Source of the DNA: Acidobacteriota bacterium
GTDB lineage: Bacteria; Acidobacteriota; UBA4820; DSQY01
DNA: 44,665 bases
Direction: 5' to 3'
NCBI GenBank assembly: GCA_021813555.1
Contig: JAKAKG010000155.1
Span: 1 to 44,665 of the forward strand
The notes under the pieces are model-generated. The model searched no databases. It saw only the letters and a program-made list of their open reading frames with translations, and had not been told where the DNA came from. Position 1 is the first letter of the stretch, and each line of letters opens with the position of its first letter. A program made the position numbers and the translations under genes. This document shows positions 33,808 through 44,665 of this stretch, in pieces.

Positions 33808-33903
33808 CTTCAACGTCCTCCTCCCTAGCGGAGGCCTGGGCCCCGCCTCGGGCTTGCCAAATTCATGGCCCGCCGGGTACCGTGGATCCTGTCCGGAGAT
33901 GCC

Positions 33904-34383
33904 ATGGCGACCCGCCCGACCCCAGAACACTTCATGGACTTGGCTCTCGTTTTGGCCCGCGAAGCGGCGGCGGCGGGCGAGGTGCCCGTGGGCGCCGTGC
34001 TGGCCTCCAGCGCCGGGGATGTGATCGCCCGCGGGCGAAACCGGTCCGTGGAGATCTCGCCCCTCCGCCACGCCGAGGTGGAGGCGCTGGAGGCGGCCCT
34101 GGCCCGGGAGGACAGGTGGACCCTGGGCGGCGCCACCCTGTACGTCACCGCGGAGCCCTGCCTCATGTGCCTGGGCGCCATGGTTCAGGCCCGGATCGGC
34201 GGACTGGTTTTCGGCTGTCCCGAGCCGCGCTTCGGCGGCGTGGCCTTGTTGCAGGGCCTGTGGAAGGAGGGCCGCTATCCCCACAGGTTTCCCGTGGCCG
34301 GCGGCCTGCGAGACGCCGAAGCGCGAGACCTCCTCCAGGGGTTCTTCAGGGAGAGACGTGCCGCCCTGCCCGGCACCGCCTAG
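33904..34383 (+). CDS. tadA: tRNA-specific adenosine deaminase TadA
   Basis: Converts adenosine 34 of tRNA-Arg(ACG) to inosine. About 159 residues of cytidine-deaminase fold: zinc ligands H and the catalytic Glu in SPLRHAEVEALEAALA, and the two Cys in VTAEPCLMCLGAMVQARIGG, plus GEVPVGAVLASSAGDVIARG RN before. The ATG at 33904 has GGAG 5 nt upstream and suits the family; an in-frame ATG at 33865 lacks a ribosome binding site. Divergent from the rpsL operon. Confidence 0.93.
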   Translation: MATRPTPEHFMDLALVLAREAAAAGEVPVGAVLASSAGDVIARGRNRSVEISPLRHAEVEALEAALAREDRWTLGGATLYVTAEPCLMCLGAMVQARIGGLVFGCPEPRFGGVALLQGLWKEGRYPHRFPVAGGLRDAEARDLLQGFFRERRAALPGTA

Positions 34384-35118: not shown

Positions 35119-35206
35119 GGAGAGATGGCCGAGTGGTCGAAGGCGGCGGTCTCGAAAACCGTTAACCCGCAAGGGTTCGGGGGTTCGAATCCCTCTCTCT
35201 CCGCCA
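35119..35206 (+). tRNA. tRNA-Ser (anticodon CGA)
   Basis: An 88-nt class II tRNA with CCA encoded. The acceptor GGAGAGA pairs with TCTCTCC, followed by G73 and CCA. The anticodon loop CTCGAAA gives anticodon CGA (serine, UCG). The variable arm AACCCGCAAGGGTT is long, as expected for tRNA-Ser, and the T arm has GGTTCGAAT. The island integrase starts its 3' end 7 bp downstream, so the tRNA 3' end is very likely the attachment site. Confidence 0.95.
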
Positions 35207-35213: not shown

Positions 35214-36326
35214 TCAACTACTTACGGCTGGTGAAGTGGACTGAGCCCCGACCGGGGCTTGGGCGGGATTGCAAGTAAATTGCAAGTCCGAATCGAGAAG
35301 GGCCACCGCTTGGTTCAAATGGGACTTGGCGAGGTGGGCATACCTGAGCACCATGGCGAGCGTGGTATGTCCGAGGAGCTCCTGGATCGTCACGAGGTCC
35401 GCTCCCGCCATGACCAGCCGGCTAGCGAACGTGTGCCGCAGGCTGTGCCACACCACGCCCGACAACTTCGCATCCTTGAGCGCCTTGTCCCAAAGGCGGC
35501 GAAATGGGCCATTGAAGCCGCCGCGAAAGTGAGGGAAGACCAGGACTTCCGGGTCAATCGCCTGAGGCAGGCTATCCAGGGCTGCCTTCGCCTTGTGATT
35601 CAGAGGTACACGCCGGGAGCGTTTCCCTTTGGCCTTCGCTGCCGTGACGGTCACCTCACCGCGGCGCCGGTCCACCTGGCCCCAGGTAAGGGACAGCATT
35701 TCTCCCAGCCGCAGCCCCGTATTCAGGGAAAAAGCGATGGCTGGTTTCAGTTGCGGCGCCGCCTTGTCCAGAAGCACGGCCTCCTCGTCAAGGGTGAGAA
35801 TCCGGTCCCGACGCGATTCGGGTTTGAAGAACTTGACGGCCAGGACGGGATTCTTCTCGCAGAGGCTCCATGAGGTGCTCAGTGAAAAGAGCCGCTTGAG
35901 CCGGGCGAGATCGTTGTCCACCGTCTTCTTGCTGGTCGTCTGCTCGCCCCGTTTTTCCGTGACCCTCGCCACCTTGTAGGCCTCTACATCGGCCGTGGAG
36001 ATTTGGCCAAGCGTCTTTCCCTTGAACCGAGGAAACGTCTTCCAGCGGTCCGCAAAGTAGGTGTCGTTGCGGTACGTGTTTGGGCGGGTGTTGATTTCCG
36101 ACCACTCCAGGAAGCGCTTCACCGCGTCTTCAAACTTGGTCCTCACCTCCTTCTTCCGATCCATATACCGTCCTTCCCGGATCTGGGTATGGATCTTCTC
36201 CAGGTAGGCCCTGGCTTCTCCTTTGAAGTTGGCGATGCGTCGGTGGTACCTACCGTCGACGTACCAAGAGAACTGCCAGCGACCATCTGGAAGCTGCTTC
36301 AACCCGCGCTCCTTGCGCTTCTCCAC
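35214..36326 (-). CDS. int: tyrosine recombinase/phage-type integrase
   Basis: Drives integration and excision of the island. 370 residues. An N-terminal arm-binding segment (RGLKQLPDGRWQFSWYVDGR) is followed by a SAM-like core-binding domain (about 65-165) and the catalytic domain with R206 (NTGLRLGEML), Lys at about 231-235, H294 and R297 (WHSLRHTFASRL), H320 (LLGHTTLAMV) and nucleophile Y329 (LRYAHL). All catalytic residues are present. The frame is open to 36494, but the GTG at 36326 has an excellent AAGGAGG 5 nt upstream. Its C-terminus faces the tRNA. Confidence 0.93.
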   Translation of the reverse strand: MEKRKERGLKQLPDGRWQFSWYVDGRYHRRIANFKGEARAYLEKIHTQIREGRYMDRKKEVRTKFEDAVKRFLEWSEINTRPNTYRNDTYFADRWKTFPRFKGKTLGQISTADVEAYKVARVTEKRGEQTTSKKTVDNDLARLKRLFSLSTSWSLCEKNPVLAVKFFKPESRRDRILTLDEEAVLLDKAAPQLKPAIAFSLNTGLRLGEMLSLTWGQVDRRRGEVTVTAAKAKGKRSRRVPLNHKAKAALDSLPQAIDPEVLVFPHFRGGFNGPFRRLWDKALKDAKLSGVVWHSLRHTFASRLVMAGADLVTIQELLGHTTLAMVLRYAHLAKSHLNQAVALLDSDLQFTCNPAQAPVGAQSTSPAVSS

Positions 36327-36396
36327 CGTTGCCTCCTTTCTTCTGTGGGAACCGATTCGCTCCATTAGGCGCCAGTTCCGGCCCAATTTCCAGGCC

Positions 36397-37710
36397 TCAC
36401 CAGCGCTCGTGGCCATCGCCGTATTCGTGAGGGTGCCGAGGGCGTTCTGCCCGGCGATCCTCTCGCTTCGGGAGGTCACGCCCACCGTGTCCACGGTGCG
36501 GTTCGCGCGTGGCGGCCTCCACCTGGCGCATTAGGGAAGTAACAAGCCCGCGGGCTTCGCCTCCGACGGCCCGCGTCAGGTCCCCCGAAGCGGCCCGGTC
36601 GGTCATGTCGCCTCGCAGGGAGTTTTCCTGCAAGCGGGCGCCAATTCGTACCGTGCCGCCTCGGCTGAGCCGGTCGGCCGACACGTCGCTGTGACTCAGG
36701 CCGTGGCTGTCCTTGAAGCTGAAATGATAGCGGCCCCGCTCATCCTGGCGGGCGGCCACACCCAGCTTGGACAAGCTCTCCTTGAACCCTTGGAGGTCTT
36801 TAGAGGTCCTCAGCGCTTCGGTGATTCGGCCGCGCAGGTCCCTCTGCCAGGCGTAGGGCCGGTTCTGTTCCGCCAAGAGCCGCCTTCGATAGCCCTCCGG
36901 GTCCTGCCGGAGCTGCTCTTTTTGACGGGCGAATTTTTCGACCAAGGCGTCCCGTTGGTAGCTCTCCCCGAGGCGGCCTTCTCGGGCAATCCGATTCTTT
37001 CCGTGAGCATCCTTCATGCTGTAGCTGAACTTCTCGCCCCGGACCCGCAGCTCCACTCCCTTCTCCTTGAGGCGAGCCTTGAATTCTTCTTCCGAGAAGG
37101 CTCGACGGCCTGCCTCCCGAATCCGGTTCTGCAGGTCAAGCTTCCAGGAATAGCGCTCGCCGCCTCGTTGGGCCTGGCGGATGAACTTGTCGGAGGGGCG
37201 ATGGGGATCCCGCACCCGGTCCAGCTCGCGCTGAATGCCATGGCTCCTCGCGAGCCTGTCGTTAATATCCCGAAGGCGTCCCAGGTTTTGCTTGTCATCG
37301 TGGTACTTCCGCCCGTCCAGGCCCGTGGCGTTCCAGACCACGTGCGCGTGCGGGTGCTCTTTCTCTCCGTGAACGACCACCAGGTACTCGTACTTGTCGG
37401 ATATGCCCACTGCCTTCGCCCACTCCTCCCCGTAGTCCCGGATTCGCCCGAAGTCCGGACCGCCTTCTTTCGTAACCATGTCCCCGAGGTCATTTCGTTC
37501 GAAGCTGATGGCCGCGTGGTAGTACTGGCGCCCGCCTTCTTGTCCGTAGTGGGCTCGCGTGCCCCGGAACTCTCGTTCGACCGACTCGCTGTCCCGGCCG
37601 GCCACGTTACCGCCAAGTTCGCGGACGCGGCTTTCGTCTCCCTTCTTGTCCAGGAGGTAGCCGATCATGCTGGCGCTCTGCGCCCCGTGCGAGATCTTCA
37701 GGACGGGCAT
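36397..37710 (-). CDS. MOBP-type relaxase (plasmid mobilisation)
   Basis: Nicks oriT and pilots the strand in conjugative transfer. 437 residues. The N-terminal relaxase domain has a candidate catalytic Tyr18 (SMIGYLLDK), then YYHAAISFERNDLG, and the metal-binding histidines in VVVHGEKEHPHAHVVWNATG (H114, H119, H121, H123). The C-terminal half is charged and helical, with two similar segments (YSWKLDLQNRIREAGRRAFS and YAWQRDLRGRITEALRTSKD), probably a duplicated domain. It follows mobC by 3 nt. No coupling protein or mating-pair genes are visible, so it would use a helper's transfer apparatus. Confidence 0.85.
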   Translation of the reverse strand: MPVLKISHGAQSASMIGYLLDKKGDESRVRELGGNVAGRDSESVEREFRGTRAHYGQEGGRQYYHAAISFERNDLGDMVTKEGGPDFGRIRDYGEEWAKAVGISDKYEYLVVVHGEKEHPHAHVVWNATGLDGRKYHDDKQNLGRLRDINDRLARSHGIQRELDRVRDPHRPSDKFIRQAQRGGERYSWKLDLQNRIREAGRRAFSEEEFKARLKEKGVELRVRGEKFSYSMKDAHGKNRIAREGRLGESYQRDALVEKFARQKEQLRQDPEGYRRRLLAEQNRPYAWQRDLRGRITEALRTSKDLQGFKESLSKLGVAARQDERGRYHFSFKDSHGLSHSDVSADRLSRGGTVRIGARLQENSLRGDMTDRAASGDLTRAVGGEARGLVTSLMRQVEAATREPHRGHGGRDLPKREDRRAERPRHPHEYGDGHERW

Positions 37711-37713
37711 GGC

Positions 37714-38043
37714 TCAGTTCAGGATGGCTTTCAGAAGTTCGCTGAGTTCGACCCGCAGGGCCTCAACCGCTCTGGGGTCGGCGTGCCCCAGGTTGGCCTG
37801 ATGGGCGAGCTGGTTGAGATTGCCCGCAAGGCTCCGGACGGCACGGTACACATCTTCTGGGAGCCGAGGGACCGCCTTGAATCGCTCTTCCAGGGCCAGC
37901 CCGCGGAGCAGGCTCGCTGGCTTCTTGTTGACGATCTGGGCCTGCTTCTGCAGTCGCCCATACTCCTCAGGCGTAAATCGGACGTGGACCCGATTGGGAC
38001 GCTTCCTCTGGTTCTGACACTCAGCGCTCGTCGTCTCGGTCAT
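37714..38043 (-). CDS. mobC: MobC-family mobilisation accessory protein
   Basis: 109 residues. An N-terminal ribbon-helix-helix-like segment (RPNRVHVRFTPEEYGRLQKQ AQIVNKKPASLLRGLAL) and the MobC motif LAGNLNQLAHQANLG with a helical C-terminus (DPRAVEALRVELSELLKAIL). MobC helps the relaxase melt oriT and often represses the mob operon. I chose the ATG at 38043 behind GAGGAGAGG. It lies right beside the proposed oriT. Confidence 0.85.
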   Translation of the reverse strand: MTETTSAECQNQRKRPNRVHVRFTPEEYGRLQKQAQIVNKKPASLLRGLALEERFKAVPRLPEDVYRAVRSLAGNLNQLAHQANLGHADPRAVEALRVELSELLKAILN

Positions 38044-38060
38044 GCCACCTCTCCTCGTGT

Positions 38061-38160
38061 CGTTAGGGTGTCGGGGCGAAGCCCTGACATTCACCCGAAA
38101 GAGCGGGGCCAACCCCCGCGAACCGGGTGGCAACGGCGCGCCCCCGGGCGCCCGTTGCGG
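38061..38160. other. oriT: candidate origin of transfer (oriT/bom)
   Basis: Directly upstream of mobC lie three nested or adjacent hairpins: TGTCGGGGC-GAA-GCCCTGACA (38069-38089, one mismatch); CACCCG...CGGGTG (38092-38129) enclosing GCGGGG...CCCCGC (38103-38119); and CAACGGCGCGCCC...GGGCGCCCGTTG (38131-38157, one bulge). The segment GGGTGTCGGGGCGAAGCCCT then GACA closely resembles the bom element of pBR322/ColE1 as I remember it (GGGTGTCGGGGCGCAGCCAT then GACC). Location, structure and similarity all point to the relaxase target. Confidence 0.65.
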
Positions 38161-38253: not shown

Positions 38254-39798
38254 TCACTCTCCCTTAGGCCCCCCTTCCCGGGCCGCCACCGCCGCCACCG
38301 CCAAGAGTTTGTTGGGCTTACAGGCGCCACCAGCCGCCACCGCTCCCCTTTCGGTGGCGCCTCGGGTGGCGGCACAAGTGCTTTGGAATGAGGCCGGTGG
38401 CGGCGGTGGCGGCTCAGGCGGGAGATACCTGGAGAAGGCATCCCCGAAGTCGCTCTGCTGGTAACCCCGGCATGTAACACCTTCCTGCTTCCACTTCACG
38501 GGTGAGATGCCGAAGGGATGGAGGAGGCCCGCCATTTGTTGGGCGCTGATCGGTCCTCTGCTCTTCCAGTCGGGCCACAGGCGTTCCTCCATCGTGTGGA
38601 GGTGGTGGAGGATTTCGTCGGACCCGAGCTTGTTCCTTCCGCTGGCGCTGAATAGGCCTCTCAGGTCCTGCAGAAGCGCGATGCCCACGGAGATCTCCTG
38701 GGCAGCCTGTTCAGACAAGCGGCAGGCGCTCTCCCGCGCCCGCCGGGGCCATTCCTGCCCTGCAAGGTCGGCGATGGCGAGGAGGGGTCTCCAGTTGTCC
38801 CGTGTCCGGTCCCGGGTGATTCCCTCGGGGATCTCTGGTTCGGAAAACCTGAGGGCTTCCAGGTGGTCCAGGGCCCACCTCGCCGCCATGCTCGTCAGGT
38901 CCTCCATCTCGGTGAGCCGGTGGAGTTGAAGGCGCTCGATGCGCTCGCTGTGGGCCCTGCGTCGCATTCGGATGGTGATGGCTCGGTCCGCCAGTGTCCC
39001 TGGCATTTCTCCGATGAGGGCCACCGCCTTGGGCGTCCACGTACTGAACATGCAGACCTGGAACTCGTCGCCCACCACGCGGGTCACATAGGCCTGGCTT
39101 CTCATGTGGCCGCTGTTGAGGATGCCCCGGAGTCCCTCGGAGTCGCCGAGAAATGTGTCGGCTTCGTCCAGGAGGAGGGTCGGCTTGAAGTAGTCCGTCA
39201 CACGGAAGACCGCGGACGGCGTGATATTGGCCGAAGTTAGAGGCTTGGGGACCAAGGCACTGAGCAGCGCAAGAGCCGTGCTCTTGCCGCAGCCTTTGTC
39301 GGGGCTCGTGAGGGCCAGGATGGGGGAGATCTCGAAGGCGTCGTGAGCGTGGGCGAAGAGACTCCACAGGCAGAGGGCCACCACTTGGTCGGTCTCGATG
39401 GCGAGGTAGCGCTTGACCGTCTGTTCGAGGCGAGTCAGCAAGGCAGCACCGTCCACAGACTCTGGCCAGGGCTCCGGATCCTTGAAGCCCACGGCGCTGC
39501 CCGCCTTGGGGTCGGTCGCCGGCCGCAACGCGGGGGGCATGACCGAATCCACGATCCGGCCCGGGCTCGCGAACCCCAGCGCGCGGAGGCGCTTCACCGC
39601 CCCCTCGCGCGCCAACTCGCGAGAGGTGTCGCTCATCCCACTAAGCGCCTCCTTGAAGTGGTCCAGGGCCGAGAGCATCTGCGCCGAGCCGGAGCTCTCG
39701 GTAAGGTGCTCCAGCTGCGACATGGCCTCCTCCGGTGTGGACGCCACCTTGTTCTCCATCGAAGCCAGCGCCTCGATGTTGCTCGGCGGGGCACTCAT
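38254..39798 (-). CDS. DUF3631-type P-loop ATPase/helicase (probable replication protein)
   Basis: 514 residues. A P-loop NTPase core has Walker A SPDKGCGKSTALALLSAL (165-182) and Walker B PTLLLDEADTFLGDSEGL (206-223), then ILNSGHMRSQAYVTRVV, an arginine-containing GTLADRAITIRMRRR and the DUF3631 region (WRPLLAIADLAGQEWPRRAR, LGSDEILHHLHTMEERLWPD W). Such proteins are found in plasmids and islands, often as primase-helicase parts; no primase active site is visible here. The Pro/Ala/Gly-rich C-terminus (from about 455) is encoded by nested inverted repeats. The ATG at 39798 has GGGGAG 5 nt upstream. A 10-bp-phased array overlaps the start. Confidence 0.75.
   Translation of the reverse strand: MSAPPSNIEALASMENKVASTPEEAMSQLEHLTESSGSAQMLSALDHFKEALSGMSDTSRELAREGAVKRLRALGFASPGRIVDSVMPPALRPATDPKAGSAVGFKDPEPWPESVDGAALLTRLEQTVKRYLAIETDQVVALCLWSLFAHAHDAFEISPILALTSPDKGCGKSTALALLSALVPKPLTSANITPSAVFRVTDYFKPTLLLDEADTFLGDSEGLRGILNSGHMRSQAYVTRVVGDEFQVCMFSTWTPKAVALIGEMPGTLADRAITIRMRRRAHSERIERLQLHRLTEMEDLTSMAARWALDHLEALRFSEPEIPEGITRDRTRDNWRPLLAIADLAGQEWPRRARESACRLSEQAAQEISVGIALLQDLRGLFSASGRNKLGSDEILHHLHTMEERLWPDWKSRGPISAQQMAGLLHPFGISPVKWKQEGVTCRGYQQSDFGDAFSRYLPPEPPPPPPASFQSTCAATRGATERGAVAAGGACKPNKLLAVAAVAAREGGPKGE
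38282..38413. repeat. nested long inverted repeats at the 3' end of the helicase gene
   Basis: Outer arms 38282-38300 (GCCGCCACCGCCGCCACCG) and 38395-38413 are perfect 19-bp inverted repeats with 94 bp between. Inside, GGCGCCACC (38323-38331) pairs with GGTGGCGCC (38353-38361). The DNA or RNA could fold into a large branched hairpin. Confidence 0.75.
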
Positions 39799-39910
39799 GG
39801 GCACTCCCCGGCCCCAATGAGCACTTCTGAGGAGAAGAGGAGACTCCCGTAAACTCCCGTAAAGTAGATGGCACTAGATAGCACTCCCGGGCACTCTTGG
39901 GCAGTAGAAT
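39791..39910. repeat. 10-bp-phased GCACTCCCGG-like array (candidate iterons)
   Basis: Units recur in exact 10-bp register: GCACTCATGG (39791), GCACTCCCCG (39801), GCACTTCTGA (39821), AGACTCCCGT (39841), AAACTCCCGT (39851), GCACTAGATA (39871), GCACTCCCGG (39881), GCACTCTTGG (39891), GCAGTAGAAT (39901). The units at 39811, 39831 and 39861 are degenerate. The array overlaps the first codons of the helicase gene and abuts an AT-rich patch at 39907-39936. Confidence 0.7.
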
Positions 39911-40069: not shown

Positions 40070-41059
40070 CTAGCTACCCACCGAACCCGACCAGTACGTC
40101 ACCCGTGCATCGCCCAGCGCCATGTTGGCGCCTGTGTCCAGATTCCAATTGAAGAGAACACCTGGGAGCTCTGCACTCTGGGTCTTGTCCATGATCGCCT
40201 TAGCGTCTCGGACATCATGGTCCATGGATCGCCACGCCTGGAGAACGTTCTCGACGGCTCGGGCGAAACCGATTTCAGCAAAAGGAGGTCGGAGGTCATG
40301 GTTCATCGGGTCCGGCACTGCATCAAAGAAGTCACGAACCTCTTCCGGCTGATTTCTCCTAAGTCGGTCTGGAGATGAGTAGGTCAAGCTGGAGAGCCCT
40401 GGAATCTGGCGCGAGAGTGCGAACGCCAGCTTGCTGTCCGAAGAAACGTCGAGCAGGGCTGCGTAGGTCCCGCGCCACTGTGCGGGGTCTGGATTGGGAT
40501 CTAGCTCCCCATAGACCTCCTTCAGGAGTCCGAACCAGAACCCTAGGACCCAGGGGAAAGCATGCTGTTCAGGCAAGGCTGATAGCTTGAGCTGGTGGAC
40601 GAAGTGGGTACCTTGAAGGTCGCAGCCTCGCGTCTCTGAAAACAGCAAGGCATCCTGCACCATTTCGCACACGCGATGACGGACTGGAGCCGTGTGATAC
40701 GGCCCCACAATGGCCTGAACAATGGGATGTATCGTCGCGTCTGTCACGCAGTGGGCCACATAGCCTGCCAACCAAGCCAGGCGAGCGTTTCCTTCAGGTC
40801 TGCCCACGAGATTGCTCACGCCCAATTCGAGGGACCCCTGAAGACCCATGCCATTGGTCTTCAAGTAGTGCATCCGATCGGCCCACTGTTTGTCGGGACC
40901 AATAGCCATCGCGTAGGGCAGGTCGGGACTCACCGAACCGAGCAAGAGAAAAGGTGTCGCCGATTGCAGGAACTTGGCCAGACTTGATAAGCCGGGATCC
41001 GAGTGTGCCCTCTCCAGAGCAGCATCCACGACGAGCAGATGGGTAATTGCGCCGGCCAT
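40070..41059 (-). CDS. zinc-dependent phospholipase C family protein (possible effector)
   Basis: 329 residues. The fold of the Zn_dep_PLPC family is suggested by the N-terminal MAGAITHLLVVDAAL (H7), LLGSVSPDLPYAMAIGPDKQ (D46), MHYLKTNG (H64) and the central ARLAWLAGYVAHCVTDATIH PIVQ (H103, D107, H111), then GPYHTAPVRHRVCEMVQDAL. These are the His/Asp positions expected to hold zinc. Family members cleave phospholipid head groups, or are uncharacterised relatives. No signal peptide is evident, so it would act from the cytoplasm. GGAGGAAGG precedes the ATG. It follows the cyclase-like gene by 28 bp, a probable operon. Base composition is less G+C-rich than the core genome. Confidence 0.7.
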   Translation of the reverse strand: MAGAITHLLVVDAALERAHSDPGLSSLAKFLQSATPFLLLGSVSPDLPYAMAIGPDKQWADRMHYLKTNGMGLQGSLELGVSNLVGRPEGNARLAWLAGYVAHCVTDATIHPIVQAIVGPYHTAPVRHRVCEMVQDALLFSETRGCDLQGTHFVHQLKLSALPEQHAFPWVLGFWFGLLKEVYGELDPNPDPAQWRGTYAALLDVSSDSKLAFALSRQIPGLSSLTYSSPDRLRRNQPEEVRDFFDAVPDPMNHDLRPPFAEIGFARAVENVLQAWRSMDHDVRDAKAIMDKTQSAELPGVLFNWNLDTGANMALGDARVTYWSGSVGS

Positions 41060-41087
41060 ATTTCCTTCCTCCGCCCCCTCAACGAAT

Positions 41088-41840
41088 CTAGTGCGACTCC
41101 TCAGGGGGTTCCTTTCGCCTAGCCTTCACAAGTTCGAAATACATCCTTGTGTTATCTACTTTCTCTTGGGCTGATGGGGCAATCGGCCACCGGGCGAGAA
41201 ACCTAAGAAAGTCCTCTTCTCGAACGTGAAGCGGCCATGGGAGGGCATAGCTGGGGAGAACCTTGTGCTCGGCCAACGGCACGTCGTAACGAAGGAAAAA
41301 CTGCTCCTGGAAATCTAGGTCTGGTCCGTCAGTTTGATCCAGAAGACTGGTCGAGGTAGGAGTCGTACACACCCCGATCCACTTAGGCTTCTCATACCAT
41401 GCCTTGGCTTCCAGGAATGCGTCTCCCAGGACCATGACGTCGGAGTACCAATATGAGCCGTGGCCAAGCACGCCCCTGAAGGCTATGGGAAGGACAGGAT
41501 CCGAAATCCAATCGCTGGTGTTCCTGATGATCAGGTCAGCCAAGCGAATCAACGCACGCCTCGGATCGCACTGCAGCTCTACGGTCGAGAACAGAACGAC
41601 TGTGTCTTGAAAAAGCCTGGCCTTGAGTCCCAATGCCGGCGTATCGACCCCAATCTGCGCCATGAGTCCCTGGTGAAACTCGTCGGACCTACAAGATCCT
41701 TCCATATCCAGCAAGATCTTGGACCAGAAGTCCACAAATAGTCTCGGATTGCTCTCCCTAGTGGCTTTCCAGGCATTAGATGTGCCCATGCCATCCATCA
41801 GCGCGATCACGCCGCTCTGGACCAAACGAGCCTCATTCAC
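41088..41840 (-). CDS. class III nucleotidyl-cyclase-like protein (Pycsar-cyclase-like)
   Basis: About 250 residues. The pattern is that of stand-alone cyclase-fold proteins: first strand GVIALMDGMGTSNAW with metal-type D16; the hairpin LFQDTVVLFSTVE with D79; then PIAFRGVLGHGSYWYSDVMV LGDAFLEAKAWYEKPKWIGV (119-157), which resembles the RGxxxxGEFY...GPAxxEAxxWYE block of uncharacterised bacterial cyclase relatives; and FFLRYDVPLA, YALPWP near the C-terminus. Both metal Asp are kept, so activity is possible; product is unknown. GTG 41840 is the preferred start (GGGAGAG upstream); TTG 41879 is an alternative. The assignment rests on motif memory, not a search. Visibly lower G+C than the core genome supports transfer. 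Confidence 0.55.
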   Translation of the reverse strand: MNEARLVQSGVIALMDGMGTSNAWKATRESNPRLFVDFWSKILLDMEGSCRSDEFHQGLMAQIGVDTPALGLKARLFQDTVVLFSTVELQCDPRRALIRLADLIIRNTSDWISDPVLPIAFRGVLGHGSYWYSDVMVLGDAFLEAKAWYEKPKWIGVCTTPTSTSLLDQTDGPDLDFQEQFFLRYDVPLAEHKVLPSYALPWPLHVREEDFLRFLARWPIAPSAQEKVDNTRMYFELVKARRKEPPEESH

Positions 41841-41939
41841 TCTCTTCGCTCTCCCATTTGCTGCGGCACGATCTCGCAAGCTGGTCCATTGTCGGGAGTG
41901 ACATTCTGGCTGCGCCTCTTGATTCAGTGCTGATTCTCT

Positions 41940-44665
41940 CTAGCGTTCTGAACTCGGCCGGGGTTCAACGGCACCCGGTTCGTAGGTCAGCCCGAAAATC
42001 TTATCCTTGAGCCACCGGCGGAAGGACTCATTGTCGCTGAACTGCTTGAATAGTTCAGTCTGGTCGGAAAGCAGGTCCGTCATAACCCGCCCGAGGGCCT
42101 TGTCGTGCTCGATGCGGGCGTTCTGGCGGTCCGAGTTCGCCTTGGCGTTCTGGTAGGCTCGGTCCGCGGCCACCTTGGCGGGAATCTCCTCCGTGATGAC
42201 CTTACGGATCTTGTCAGCGTCCTTCCATTGGATGTTCCCGAAGTGGTCGTTGAACTCCCGCAAAATGTTGCTCAGGCGGTCCAGCTCTGGCTCTGGTCTG
42301 TGGCCGCCCTCGCCGATGGGGACGGGGCCAATCTCCCCGTCTTGGTCAACCAGGGCAATGGACAGAGCGGCCTTGACCTCGACCCGATAGCTATCCATGT
42401 CGATAGTCTTCAGGATGCCCTTCGCCAAGTCGCCGTCATCGGGTGACGGCAGCTTGGGAATGAGGAAGTGGAGGAACAGAGACAGCTTCTCCCAGGAAGC
42501 ATTGGTGAAGGGCAGGATGGAGGCGAGGAACCCGTAAGTTCTCTCGAAGGATTTTGCCCTCCCCTTGAATTCCACCTGCCCGTCCACATCCAGCGCATGG
42601 GAGTAGACGGCAGCGCACGAGTCGAGGATGGGGTCGAGCTTCTCACGCGCAGCGCCGGTCAGGTAGAGGGCGACGAACTGCTCCACCTGGTCCCAGGCAT
42701 AAACCTGTGCTCCGTCCAGGTCCGCCTTCAGGTTGTGCAGCTTGTTGGGATCGGTCTCCTCACCGAGGACAGTTGTGCGGTAGAAGGGCTCGAAGGCCCT
42801 TTGGATCGTATCGGCATCATTCACGAAATCGAGGATGAATGTGTCGCGCTTTCGGGGATGGGCGCGGTTGAGCCGGGATAGGGTCTGGACCGCCTTCACC
42901 CCCGACAGGACCTTGTCGACATACATCGTGTGCAGGAGGGGCTCGTCATAGCCCGTTTGAAACTTGTCCGCCACGATCAGGAACCGGTAGGGATCCTCCT
43001 GGATGCGGTCGGGGATCTCGGAGCTCGGGAACCCATTGAGGGACGCCTCGGTCACCTGAACCCCGCCCCATTCATGCTCACCGGAGAAAGCAACGATGGC
43101 CTTGTAGGGGCTCTTGCGCTCCTCCAGATAAGCCACAACTGCATGGTAGTACCGGATGGCCTTCTCGATGCCACCCGTGACCACCATGGCCCTCGCCTGC
43201 CCGCCCAACTTCTGTCTGGCGATCACCTGCTCGTGGAAATGGTCCACCATGATCTCGGCCTTGAGCCGAATAGCGTGGTCGTGGGACTCGACGAAACGGC
43301 GGAGCTTTTTCTGAGCCTTCTTCGTGTCGAACTGGGGGTCGTCCCCCACGGTCTTGATAAGGCGGTAATAGCTCGCCACCGGCGTGTAGCTGCGAAGCAC
43401 ATCGAGGATGAACCCTTCCTCGATGGCCTGCTTCATGGTGTAGCTGTGGAAGGGGCGGTGCTTCACCTTGTCGCCGACCTGGCAAGGGTCGCCGAAGAGC
43501 TCCAAGGTCTTGTTCTTTGGGGTGGCTGTGAAAGCAAAGTAGCTCGCGTTTGAGAGCATCTTCCGGGACTCCATCAGGCGGTTGATGGTGTCCTCCACGT
43601 CCTCCTCTTCCTCGGCTCCGCCATGGGTAGCCAGGGCGATGTTCATTTGCGCTGCCGCGCGCCCCCCCTGGCTGGAGTGCGCCTCGTCGATGACGATGGC
43701 GAAGGCTCTGCCCCTATGCTCGTTGCCGATCTCGTCGAGGACATACGGAAACTTTTGCACCGTCGTGATGATGATCTTCTTGCCCGACCGGATGAAATCC
43801 CGGAGCTGGCCTGAGCCCTCCGTGACGGCCCCCACCACGGCGCTTACCTGGGCGAACTGCTTGATAGTGTCTCGGATCTGCTTGTCGAGGACCTTGCGGT
43901 CCGTGACGACGATGATGGAGTCGAAGGTCTCCTTCCCGGCAGCCTTTAGCCCTACGAGCTGGTGGACAAGCCAGGCGATGGAGTTGCTCTTACCGCTCCC
44001 GGCGGAGTGCTGGATGAGATACCGGTGCCCCGCACCTCTCTGGCCGGCGTCCGCCAACAGCGCCCTCACAACCCCGAGTTGGTGGTAGCGGGGGAAGATC
44101 TGGTCCTTCTTTCTTCGCCCGGTCCTTTCGTCCCTGCGTTCAACAAGTTGGGCGTAGTTCTCCAAAATATCGGTCAGGCCACGAGGGGTGAGGACTTCTT
44201 TCCAGAGGTAATCGGTCTTGAGGCCGTCGGGATTGGGTGGATTGCCCGCGCCGTCGTTGTCGCCCTTGTTGAAGGGGAGAAACCAGGAATCTTTCCCCTG
44301 AAGGCGCGTGCACATCCAGACTTCCTGGTCGTCCACGGCGAAGTGTACGGCGCAGCGGCCGAACTGAAAGAGCAGCTCCCGCGGATCGCGGTCCCGTTTG
44401 TACTGCGTGATGGCATCGTCCACGCGCTGTTTGGTCAGGAGATTCTTGAGCTCGAAGGTGGCTACGGGCAGGCCGTTGATGAAGAGGGCCATGTCCAGGG
44501 CAAGCTGGGTCTCGTCTTTGCTGTACCTGAGTTGGCGGGTCACGCTGAAGAGGTTTGCCCGGAATAGCTCCTCAGCCCTCTTGTTGCCTGGCGTGGGCGT
44601 CCCGTAAAACAGGGTCACCGAGGCGGGCCCGTGTTGGATGCCCTTCCTCAGAACGCGGATGATCC
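41940..44665 (-). CDS. hsdR: type I restriction endonuclease subunit R, HsdR (5' end off right edge)
   Basis: At least 908 residues visible; the frame stays open to the window end. The nuclease domain has Asp/Glu-Leu-Lys chemistry: DMALFINGLPVATFELKN. The translocase motor has Walker A IQHSAGSGKSNSIAWLVHQL, motif II IVIDEAHSSQGG, motif III FTATPKNKTLELFG, and VADKFQTGYDEPLLHTMYVD with LSRLNRAHPRKRDTFILDFV. The C-terminal helical region would bind the methylase core. It cuts DNA far from the recognition site in complex with HsdM and HsdS, neither of which lies in the window; they are probably upstream. The frame reads RKGIQHGPASVTLFYG before the GTG at 44618, showing that this GTG is internal. 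Confidence 0.95.
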   Translation of the reverse strand, partial: IIRVLRKGIQHGPASVTLFYGTPTPGNKRAEELFRANLFSVTRQLRYSKDETQLALDMALFINGLPVATFELKNLLTKQRVDDAITQYKRDRDPRELLFQFGRCAVHFAVDDQEVWMCTRLQGKDSWFLPFNKGDNDGAGNPPNPDGLKTDYLWKEVLTPRGLTDILENYAQLVERRDERTGRRKKDQIFPRYHQLGVVRALLADAGQRGAGHRYLIQHSAGSGKSNSIAWLVHQLVGLKAAGKETFDSIIVVTDRKVLDKQIRDTIKQFAQVSAVVGAVTEGSGQLRDFIRSGKKIIITTVQKFPYVLDEIGNEHRGRAFAIVIDEAHSSQGGRAAAQMNIALATHGGAEEEEDVEDTINRLMESRKMLSNASYFAFTATPKNKTLELFGDPCQVGDKVKHRPFHSYTMKQAIEEGFILDVLRSYTPVASYYRLIKTVGDDPQFDTKKAQKKLRRFVESHDHAIRLKAEIMVDHFHEQVIARQKLGGQARAMVVTGGIEKAIRYYHAVVAYLEERKSPYKAIVAFSGEHEWGGVQVTEASLNGFPSSEIPDRIQEDPYRFLIVADKFQTGYDEPLLHTMYVDKVLSGVKAVQTLSRLNRAHPRKRDTFILDFVNDADTIQRAFEPFYRTTVLGEETDPNKLHNLKADLDGAQVYAWDQVEQFVALYLTGAAREKLDPILDSCAAVYSHALDVDGQVEFKGRAKSFERTYGFLASILPFTNASWEKLSLFLHFLIPKLPSPDDGDLAKGILKTIDMDSYRVEVKAALSIALVDQDGEIGPVPIGEGGHRPEPELDRLSNILREFNDHFGNIQWKDADKIRKVITEEIPAKVAADRAYQNAKANSDRQNARIEHDKALGRVMTDLLSDQTELFKQFSDNESFRRWLKDKIFGLTYEPGAVEPRPSSER

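Follow-up and report, generated by a model that had tools for sequence, protein, structure and literature searches.

Two adjacent genes located behind hsdR on a mobilisable island, one encoding a protein with a predicted class III nucleotidyl-cyclase fold (the cyclase-like protein) and the other a zinc-dependent phospholipase C-family protein (the PLPC protein), are interpreted with moderate confidence as cargo at the distal end of a type I restriction-modification operon that is mobile, in which the PLPC protein would be a dormant effector and the cyclase-like protein a sensor or regulator. Both genes look like defence add-ons rather than the components of a proven two-part system. The confidences attached to the rival readings discussed below overlap, and these readings are not mutually exclusive.

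The window, which is the whole stretch of 44,665 nucleotides that was analysed (contig C230), contains the features listed in Table 1. The two open reading frames, their strand, their shared direction and the gap of 28 bp between them (41060-41087) were found as described in the initial annotation. GTG at 41840 is the likely start of the cyclase-like gene, with TTG at 41879 as a possible alternative, and hsdR is located directly upstream of the pair on the same strand. The tRNA-Ser gene is accompanied by integrase, relaxase and NikA/MobC-like genes, and the region is therefore regarded as a mobilisable island that was probably inserted at the tRNA gene and that carries the cyclase-like and PLPC genes. 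Together with the DUF3631 gene, these features confirm the mobile island next to hsdR that had been proposed earlier. The right side of the island is lost at the contig edge, since C230 ends at 44665. Outside the island, an ORF at 33865-34383 resembles a tRNA adenosine deaminase (TadA) gene by eye.

Table 1. Features of the island and its cargo in the window.
Position	Strand	Feature	Basis
35119..35206	+	tRNA-Ser(CGA) beside the integrase; probably where the island integrated and where its left end lies	
35214..36494	-	Integrase of the island, phage integrase family	
36397..37710	-	MobA/VirD2-like relaxase	
37714..38133	-	NikA-like/MobC mobilisation protein	
38254..39804	-	DUF3631 protein, island gene	
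40070..41059	-	PLPC gene: Zn-dependent phospholipase C-family protein, 329 aa	PF00882
41088..41840	-	Cyclase-like gene: class III nucleotidyl-cyclase-fold protein, 250 aa from GTG	Model fold, aligned residues
41940..44663	-	hsdR, type I restriction subunit; truncated at its 5' end by the contig edge	

A hsdM - GmrSD - hsdS set was found on another contig of the same genome, C116 (L130:1-5801), where it runs off the contig start. The HsdR of the window is 44.6% identical over 910 aa to the HsdR of genome G263, and the HsdM of C116 is 39.9% identical over 804 aa to the HsdM of G263, in which the gene order is hsdM - AbiEii - hsdS - hsdR - cyclase-like gene, with no PLPC gene. The simplest reading is that the hsdR of the window and the set on C116 are one operon split by assembly, and the order would then probably be hsdM - GmrSD - hsdS - hsdR - cyclase-like gene - PLPC gene, the first three being on the other contig. 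Because the ends of C230 and C116 show no exact overlap, the full hsd operon is one that we infer. Two further N6-methylase matches were obtained in this genome, on C155 and C197 (C116 and C155 were inspected). The gene between hsdM and hsdS on C116 is of the GmrSD-DUF5655 type. A precedent for GmrSD-type genes within a type I cluster is V. cholerae VPI-2 (PMC11411939).

For the cyclase-like protein, no Pfam, NCBIfam, PADLOC or PHROGs family was matched at E up to 1, and the Pfam model Guanylate_cyc (PF00211) was likewise unmatched at this threshold. With its AlphaFold model (built from six sequences; pLDDT 75.8, pTM 0.77), all 50 of the PDB rows listed by Foldseek, out of 663 with E up to 10, were class III adenylyl/guanylyl cyclases, with a best E of 5.4e-8, and the best Z in VIA-align was obtained with Rv1625c (Z 14.0, 3.1 A over 164 residues). 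In BFVD, two proteins were matched at E up to 0.001, both from giant viruses and one of them annotated as guanylate cyclase. A class III nucleotidyl-cyclase fold, first called from motifs in the initial annotation, is supported by this structure model.

The cyclase-like family comprises 14 loci (the window and 13 others), and 12 members were aligned residue by residue. The metal-type Asp, Asn and Arg columns were assigned by motif and not by residue-by-residue superposition, following the class III motif spacing. Asp16 and Asp79, which had been picked out as metal-type residues in the window protein, proved to be invariant in all 12 aligned members, as is Arg122, while Gly123 is present in 11 of the 12. 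At the column of the canonical class III transition-state Asn, Asn was observed in none of the 12 members, and at that of the transition-state Arg, Arg was observed in four, the window protein having Ala. Because the Asp pair is kept and the canonical Asn is missing, the aligned residues suggest that canonical cyclase chemistry is doubtful for this family and that metal/nucleotide binding is likely; the cyclase-like protein is probably a nucleotide-handling regulator or sensor. Since the canonical Asn is lacking throughout the alignment, how nucleotides are handled by this family is a clear biochemical question.

A tentative but serious possibility is that the cyclase-like protein has lost catalysis and serves as a nucleotide-binding partner, in the manner of the inactive cyclase domains described for other conflict systems. 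This reading is consistent with the loss of Asn in 12 of 12 members and the retention of Arg in four, and also with PMC7159879, according to which several cNMP cyclase domains fused to a vWA component are inactive and may only bind nucleotide. However, the Asp pair and Arg122, invariant throughout the alignment, argue for retained metal/nucleotide chemistry.

Relatives of the cyclase-like protein were obtained by profile searches. Within a same-phylum draw, 8 of 396 genomes (the window's own included) matched a six-sequence profile at E up to 0.01, five of these eight having themselves supplied rows of the profile, and in a second phylum 1 of 349 genomes matched a two-sequence profile. Further members were found in plasmid and phage records. 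The window protein used as a query gave nothing in plasmids, phages or viral contigs, and single relatives used as queries gave 2, 1, 1 and 1 records, one of them common to two queries, and otherwise none. Two matches were rejected: the one in G177 arose by chance where a TetR-like regulator gene was read out of frame, and the one in G391 (E 0.04) was a shadow frame of a larger ORF.

The gene order in G441 (L098) was PLD-SNF2 helicase - Eco57I methylase - cyclase-like gene - DUF3800. In G075 (L109), a SIR2 protein is followed by a cyclase domain inside an 839-residue protein, a type IIG enzyme is encoded on the opposite strand, and a second cyclase-like gene lies about 8 kb from the first. The cyclase-like gene of G258 (L125) adjoins a protein that matches the PADLOC TIR effector model (E 2.6e-9) and gave no Pfam match at E up to 0.01. 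Integrases with phage-integrase domains (Pfam), read as integron integrases, were found at the loci of G005 and G074, and two further loci (L120 and L133) are on plasmids. On the contig of L126, a phage-collection record, TniB is matched and TniQ is matched below its cut-off, so that this record is not counted as evidence of phage carriage. Several other neighbours were recorded as side observations: a JAB-ThiF protein near the cyclase-like gene of G258 (L125:718-5251), together with a GGDEF-domain protein whose N-terminal part matched nothing, a BrnT-like toxin gene (by eye) behind the cyclase-like gene of L003, and nuoB-like and biosynthetic genes (by eye) around those of L104 and L121, the L104 gene being beside the nuoB-like one.

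Restriction homologues were observed in 4 of the 14 cyclase-like loci vs 1 of 80 PLPC control loci (Fisher p 0.0015), and in 3 of 13 vs 1 of 80 when the window was left out (p 0.008), each locus being probed solely with queries from other loci (leave-one-out); the queries were picked from these very loci, so that the enrichment is biased upwards despite the leave-one-out design, the other loci are shorter than the window, and G075 supplies two loci. The enrichment near cyclase-like genes is indicative only. Ten of the 14 loci, including L104, L121 and L133, had no restriction neighbour in the stretch covered, and no restriction gene was found in the stretch covered of L003.

Among the loci searched, the cyclase-like and PLPC genes were found together in the window only. 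The PLPC loci outside the window numbered 86: 80 loci on GTDB contigs (the best 80 of 100 confirmed, with 27-41% identity in the best segment), three plasmid loci, the locus of G127 and two same-phylum loci that matched weakly and had short flanks; a fourth plasmid match, which was partial, was left out. None of these 86 contained a cyclase-like gene (12-sequence profile, E up to 1), and none of the 13 cyclase-like loci outside the window contained a PLPC gene. A two-row cyclase-like profile also gave 0 matches in 20 PLPC-locus genomes or records, a count that says nothing since no positive genome was included. The closest PLPC gene, 44% identical and from the congener G127, starts 3 bases behind the hsdS stop and has no cyclase-like gene there, and no cyclase-like match was obtained in a scan of the G127 genome (67% complete). 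Conversely, the hsdR operon of G263 carries the cyclase-like gene without a PLPC gene. Among the matches listed from open-licence PMC papers, no PLPC effector paired with a cyclase was found, and the cyclase-like family was not described.

The initial annotation had proposed a two-gene antiphage system and a neighbourhood survey for the recurrence of the pair in other islands. Both folds, the intact zinc site and the defence/mobile setting are supported, whereas the part that described one dedicated pair is so far not borne out by the 0 of 86 and 0 of 13 loci; this non-recurrence counts partly against the pairing, in a limited search that covered one close PLPC relative, some loci cut by contig ends and one genome-wide scan. 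We regard it as somewhat unlikely that the cyclase-like protein senses infection and emits a nucleotide signal that switches on the PLPC protein, with destruction of the membrane, as in Pycsar or CBASS. The class III fold, the Asp pair in all 12 members, the co-directional spacing of 28 bp and the intact zinc-ligand positions are consistent with such signalling, as are the candidate effectors (SIR2 and TIR-like) that adjoin other cyclase-like relatives and the PLPC gene found elsewhere in an operon with a PADLOC E1-E2 protein and a JAB protein. Against it stand the restriction of the pair to the window among the loci searched, the canonical Asn missing in 12 of 12 members and the Arg missing in the window protein, and a PLPC protein without a cyclic-nucleotide-binding domain by Pfam.

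The second gene had been assigned to the Zn-dependent PLPC family with its His/Asp set, and this assignment holds. The protein matches Pfam Zn_dep_PLPC (PF00882) with E 6.2e-15 and 56 bits vs a cut-off of 26.8, which is the sole Pfam model above its cut-off, and all eight zinc-ligand positions are kept. No PADLOC match was obtained at E up to 1, and no cyclic-nucleotide-binding or receptor domain was recognised by Pfam. In VIA-align, the structure model (18 sequences; pLDDT 84.4, pTM 0.89) was aligned with B. cereus PC-PLC over 166 residues (Z 10.2, 3.3 A), PC-PLC-type structures as a group gave Z 8.5-10.2, S1/P1-type nucleases came next with Z 6.4-7.2, and all others were at or below 3.8. The PC-PLC match comes from VIA-align, as Foldseek alone gave no significant PDB match (best E 0.15).

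The residues H7, D46, H64, H103, D107, H111, H128 and E132, which we take to be the PC-PLC zinc-ligand pattern, are conserved wherever a row has the residue, seven of them in 18 of 18 rows and H7 in 17 of 17 (one row is truncated). At residue 2, each of the 17 rows that have it carries Ala, Pro or Ser, which suits Met removal, and in the structural alignment residue 2 of the model meets residue 1 of mature B. cereus PC-PLC. The amino group of that first residue is a zinc ligand in the mature enzyme. The highest 19-residue hydropathy is only 1.13, so that a membrane segment or signal peptide is not indicated. The C-terminal extension contains a conserved W-N-L-D-x-G stretch. The PLPC-fold protein is probably a cytosolic, self-damaging zinc hydrolase.

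It is unlikely that this protein is instead an S1/P1-type nuclease or phosphodiesterase acting on nucleic acid or nucleotides rather than on lipids. Zinc-dependent PLC and S1-P1 nuclease are treated as one fold group in PMC3482391, the S1/P1-type nucleases are the next structural group with nothing else above Z 3.8, and the protein has no membrane segment, but the PC-PLC-type structures score higher and PLPC is the only Pfam model past its cut-off.

Most relatives of the PLPC protein look like ordinary chromosomal genes. A restriction homologue was present near one of 80 relatives, no PLPC gene was found in viral contigs, and a small gene of one family was located directly downstream of the PLPC gene in 55 of the 80 loci (L008-L087); in L005, the small downstream gene resembles a lipoprotein gene by eye. 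A four-gene block common to L031, L036, L045, L053, L054, L068, L074 and L079 lies directly upstream of the PLPC gene, and these eight loci are mostly from Geobacteraceae/Desulfuromonadales. An operon of DUF1508 - E1-E2 (PADLOC model) - JAB - PLPC is shared by an Aliarcobacter plasmid (L005:2333-6335) and a Fusobacteriaceae MAG (L080:1225-4552), in both of which a divergent gene resembles WYL-type regulators by eye and no CD-NTase was seen. The PLPC protein would thus be a candidate for the effector role in what looks like a CBASS-like conjugation operon at these two loci.

For the window, the reading as operon cargo draws on computed evidence, namely the predicted folds, the residues, the gene order and the recurring restriction neighbours; from there we infer the joining of the contigs, the toxicity, the trigger and the control of one protein by the other. 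Restriction would be the first line of defence, and the PLPC protein would stay silent as a cytosolic zinc hydrolase until restriction fails, after which it would damage the membrane lipids of its own cell (abortive infection). The cyclase-like protein would be a regulator or sensor that binds or processes nucleotides and that has been recruited to restriction loci and to other defence loci independently, and it may control the PLPC protein in this island. A broader form of this proposal, which we consider distinctly improbable, is that a non-canonical cyclase-like family, undescribed among the literature matches listed, serves as an exchangeable signal module on restriction systems, so that failed restriction leads to nucleotide-signalled suicide, with effectors that would differ by host (PLPC in the window, and SIR2, TIR-like or DUF3800 proteins in other genomes). 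It is also improbable that the two are chance neighbours, unrelated island genes without a defence role. In favour of this, the pair was not seen in the other loci searched, and members of both families are found as well where no defence locus is recognisable. Against it, each gene type independently follows hsd genes directly in one further genome, and defence or mobile genes adjoin several of the cyclase-like relatives.

If either gene is defensive, restriction-linked back-up immunity would gain an effector of the zinc phospholipase type and a family of non-canonical class III cyclases, and a testable link from restriction failure to nucleotide signalling would be provided. In Pycsar, a pyrimidine cyclase, in which two Asp residues coordinate metal, is combined with a receptor for cyclic pyrimidines (PMC11224242). 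The window pair resembles Pycsar (PycC with PycTM or PycTIR) in the class III fold, the two metal-type Asp residues and the adjoining candidate membrane-attacking gene, but the window protein lacks the canonical Asn and Arg, its PLPC neighbour lacks a cNMP-binding receptor domain, and neither protein matches PADLOC at E up to 1. The pair is not assigned to Pycsar because there is no receptor domain and no canonical Asn.

With CBASS systems that carry CapV, the pair shares the idea of a signal-driven phospholipase, and a PLPC relative is located in the E1-E2/JAB operon of L005 and L080. CapV is of the patatin type, and its fold is unrelated to that of PLPC. Neither window protein matches PADLOC or a CD-NTase Pfam model, in a view that ends at the contig edge, and the pair is not assigned to CBASS because there is no CD-NTase match. 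A validated three-gene CBASS combines a phospholipase with two cyclases, a cGAS-like enzyme and a diadenylate cyclase (PMC13092281). Compared with B. cereus PC-PLC and the S1-P1 superfold, the PLPC protein has the helical fold, the zinc-ligand positions and an alignment from the mature N-terminal residue in common, and differs in having no indicated membrane segment or signal peptide and in its C-terminal W-N-L-D-x-G extension.

TgvAB of V. cholerae VPI-2 is similar in that a GmrSD-type enzyme is encoded inside a type I hsd cluster, as on C116; it is a two-protein GmrSD system, and the available part of PMC11411939 mentions neither a cyclase-like nor a PLPC gene. The vWA-MoxR and caspase conflict systems likewise use cNMP cyclase domains, some of them inactive, as modules, but these domains are fused to or encoded with the core proteins (PMC7159879 and PMC8195603), whereas the cyclase-like protein of the window is a stand-alone protein encoded behind hsdR.
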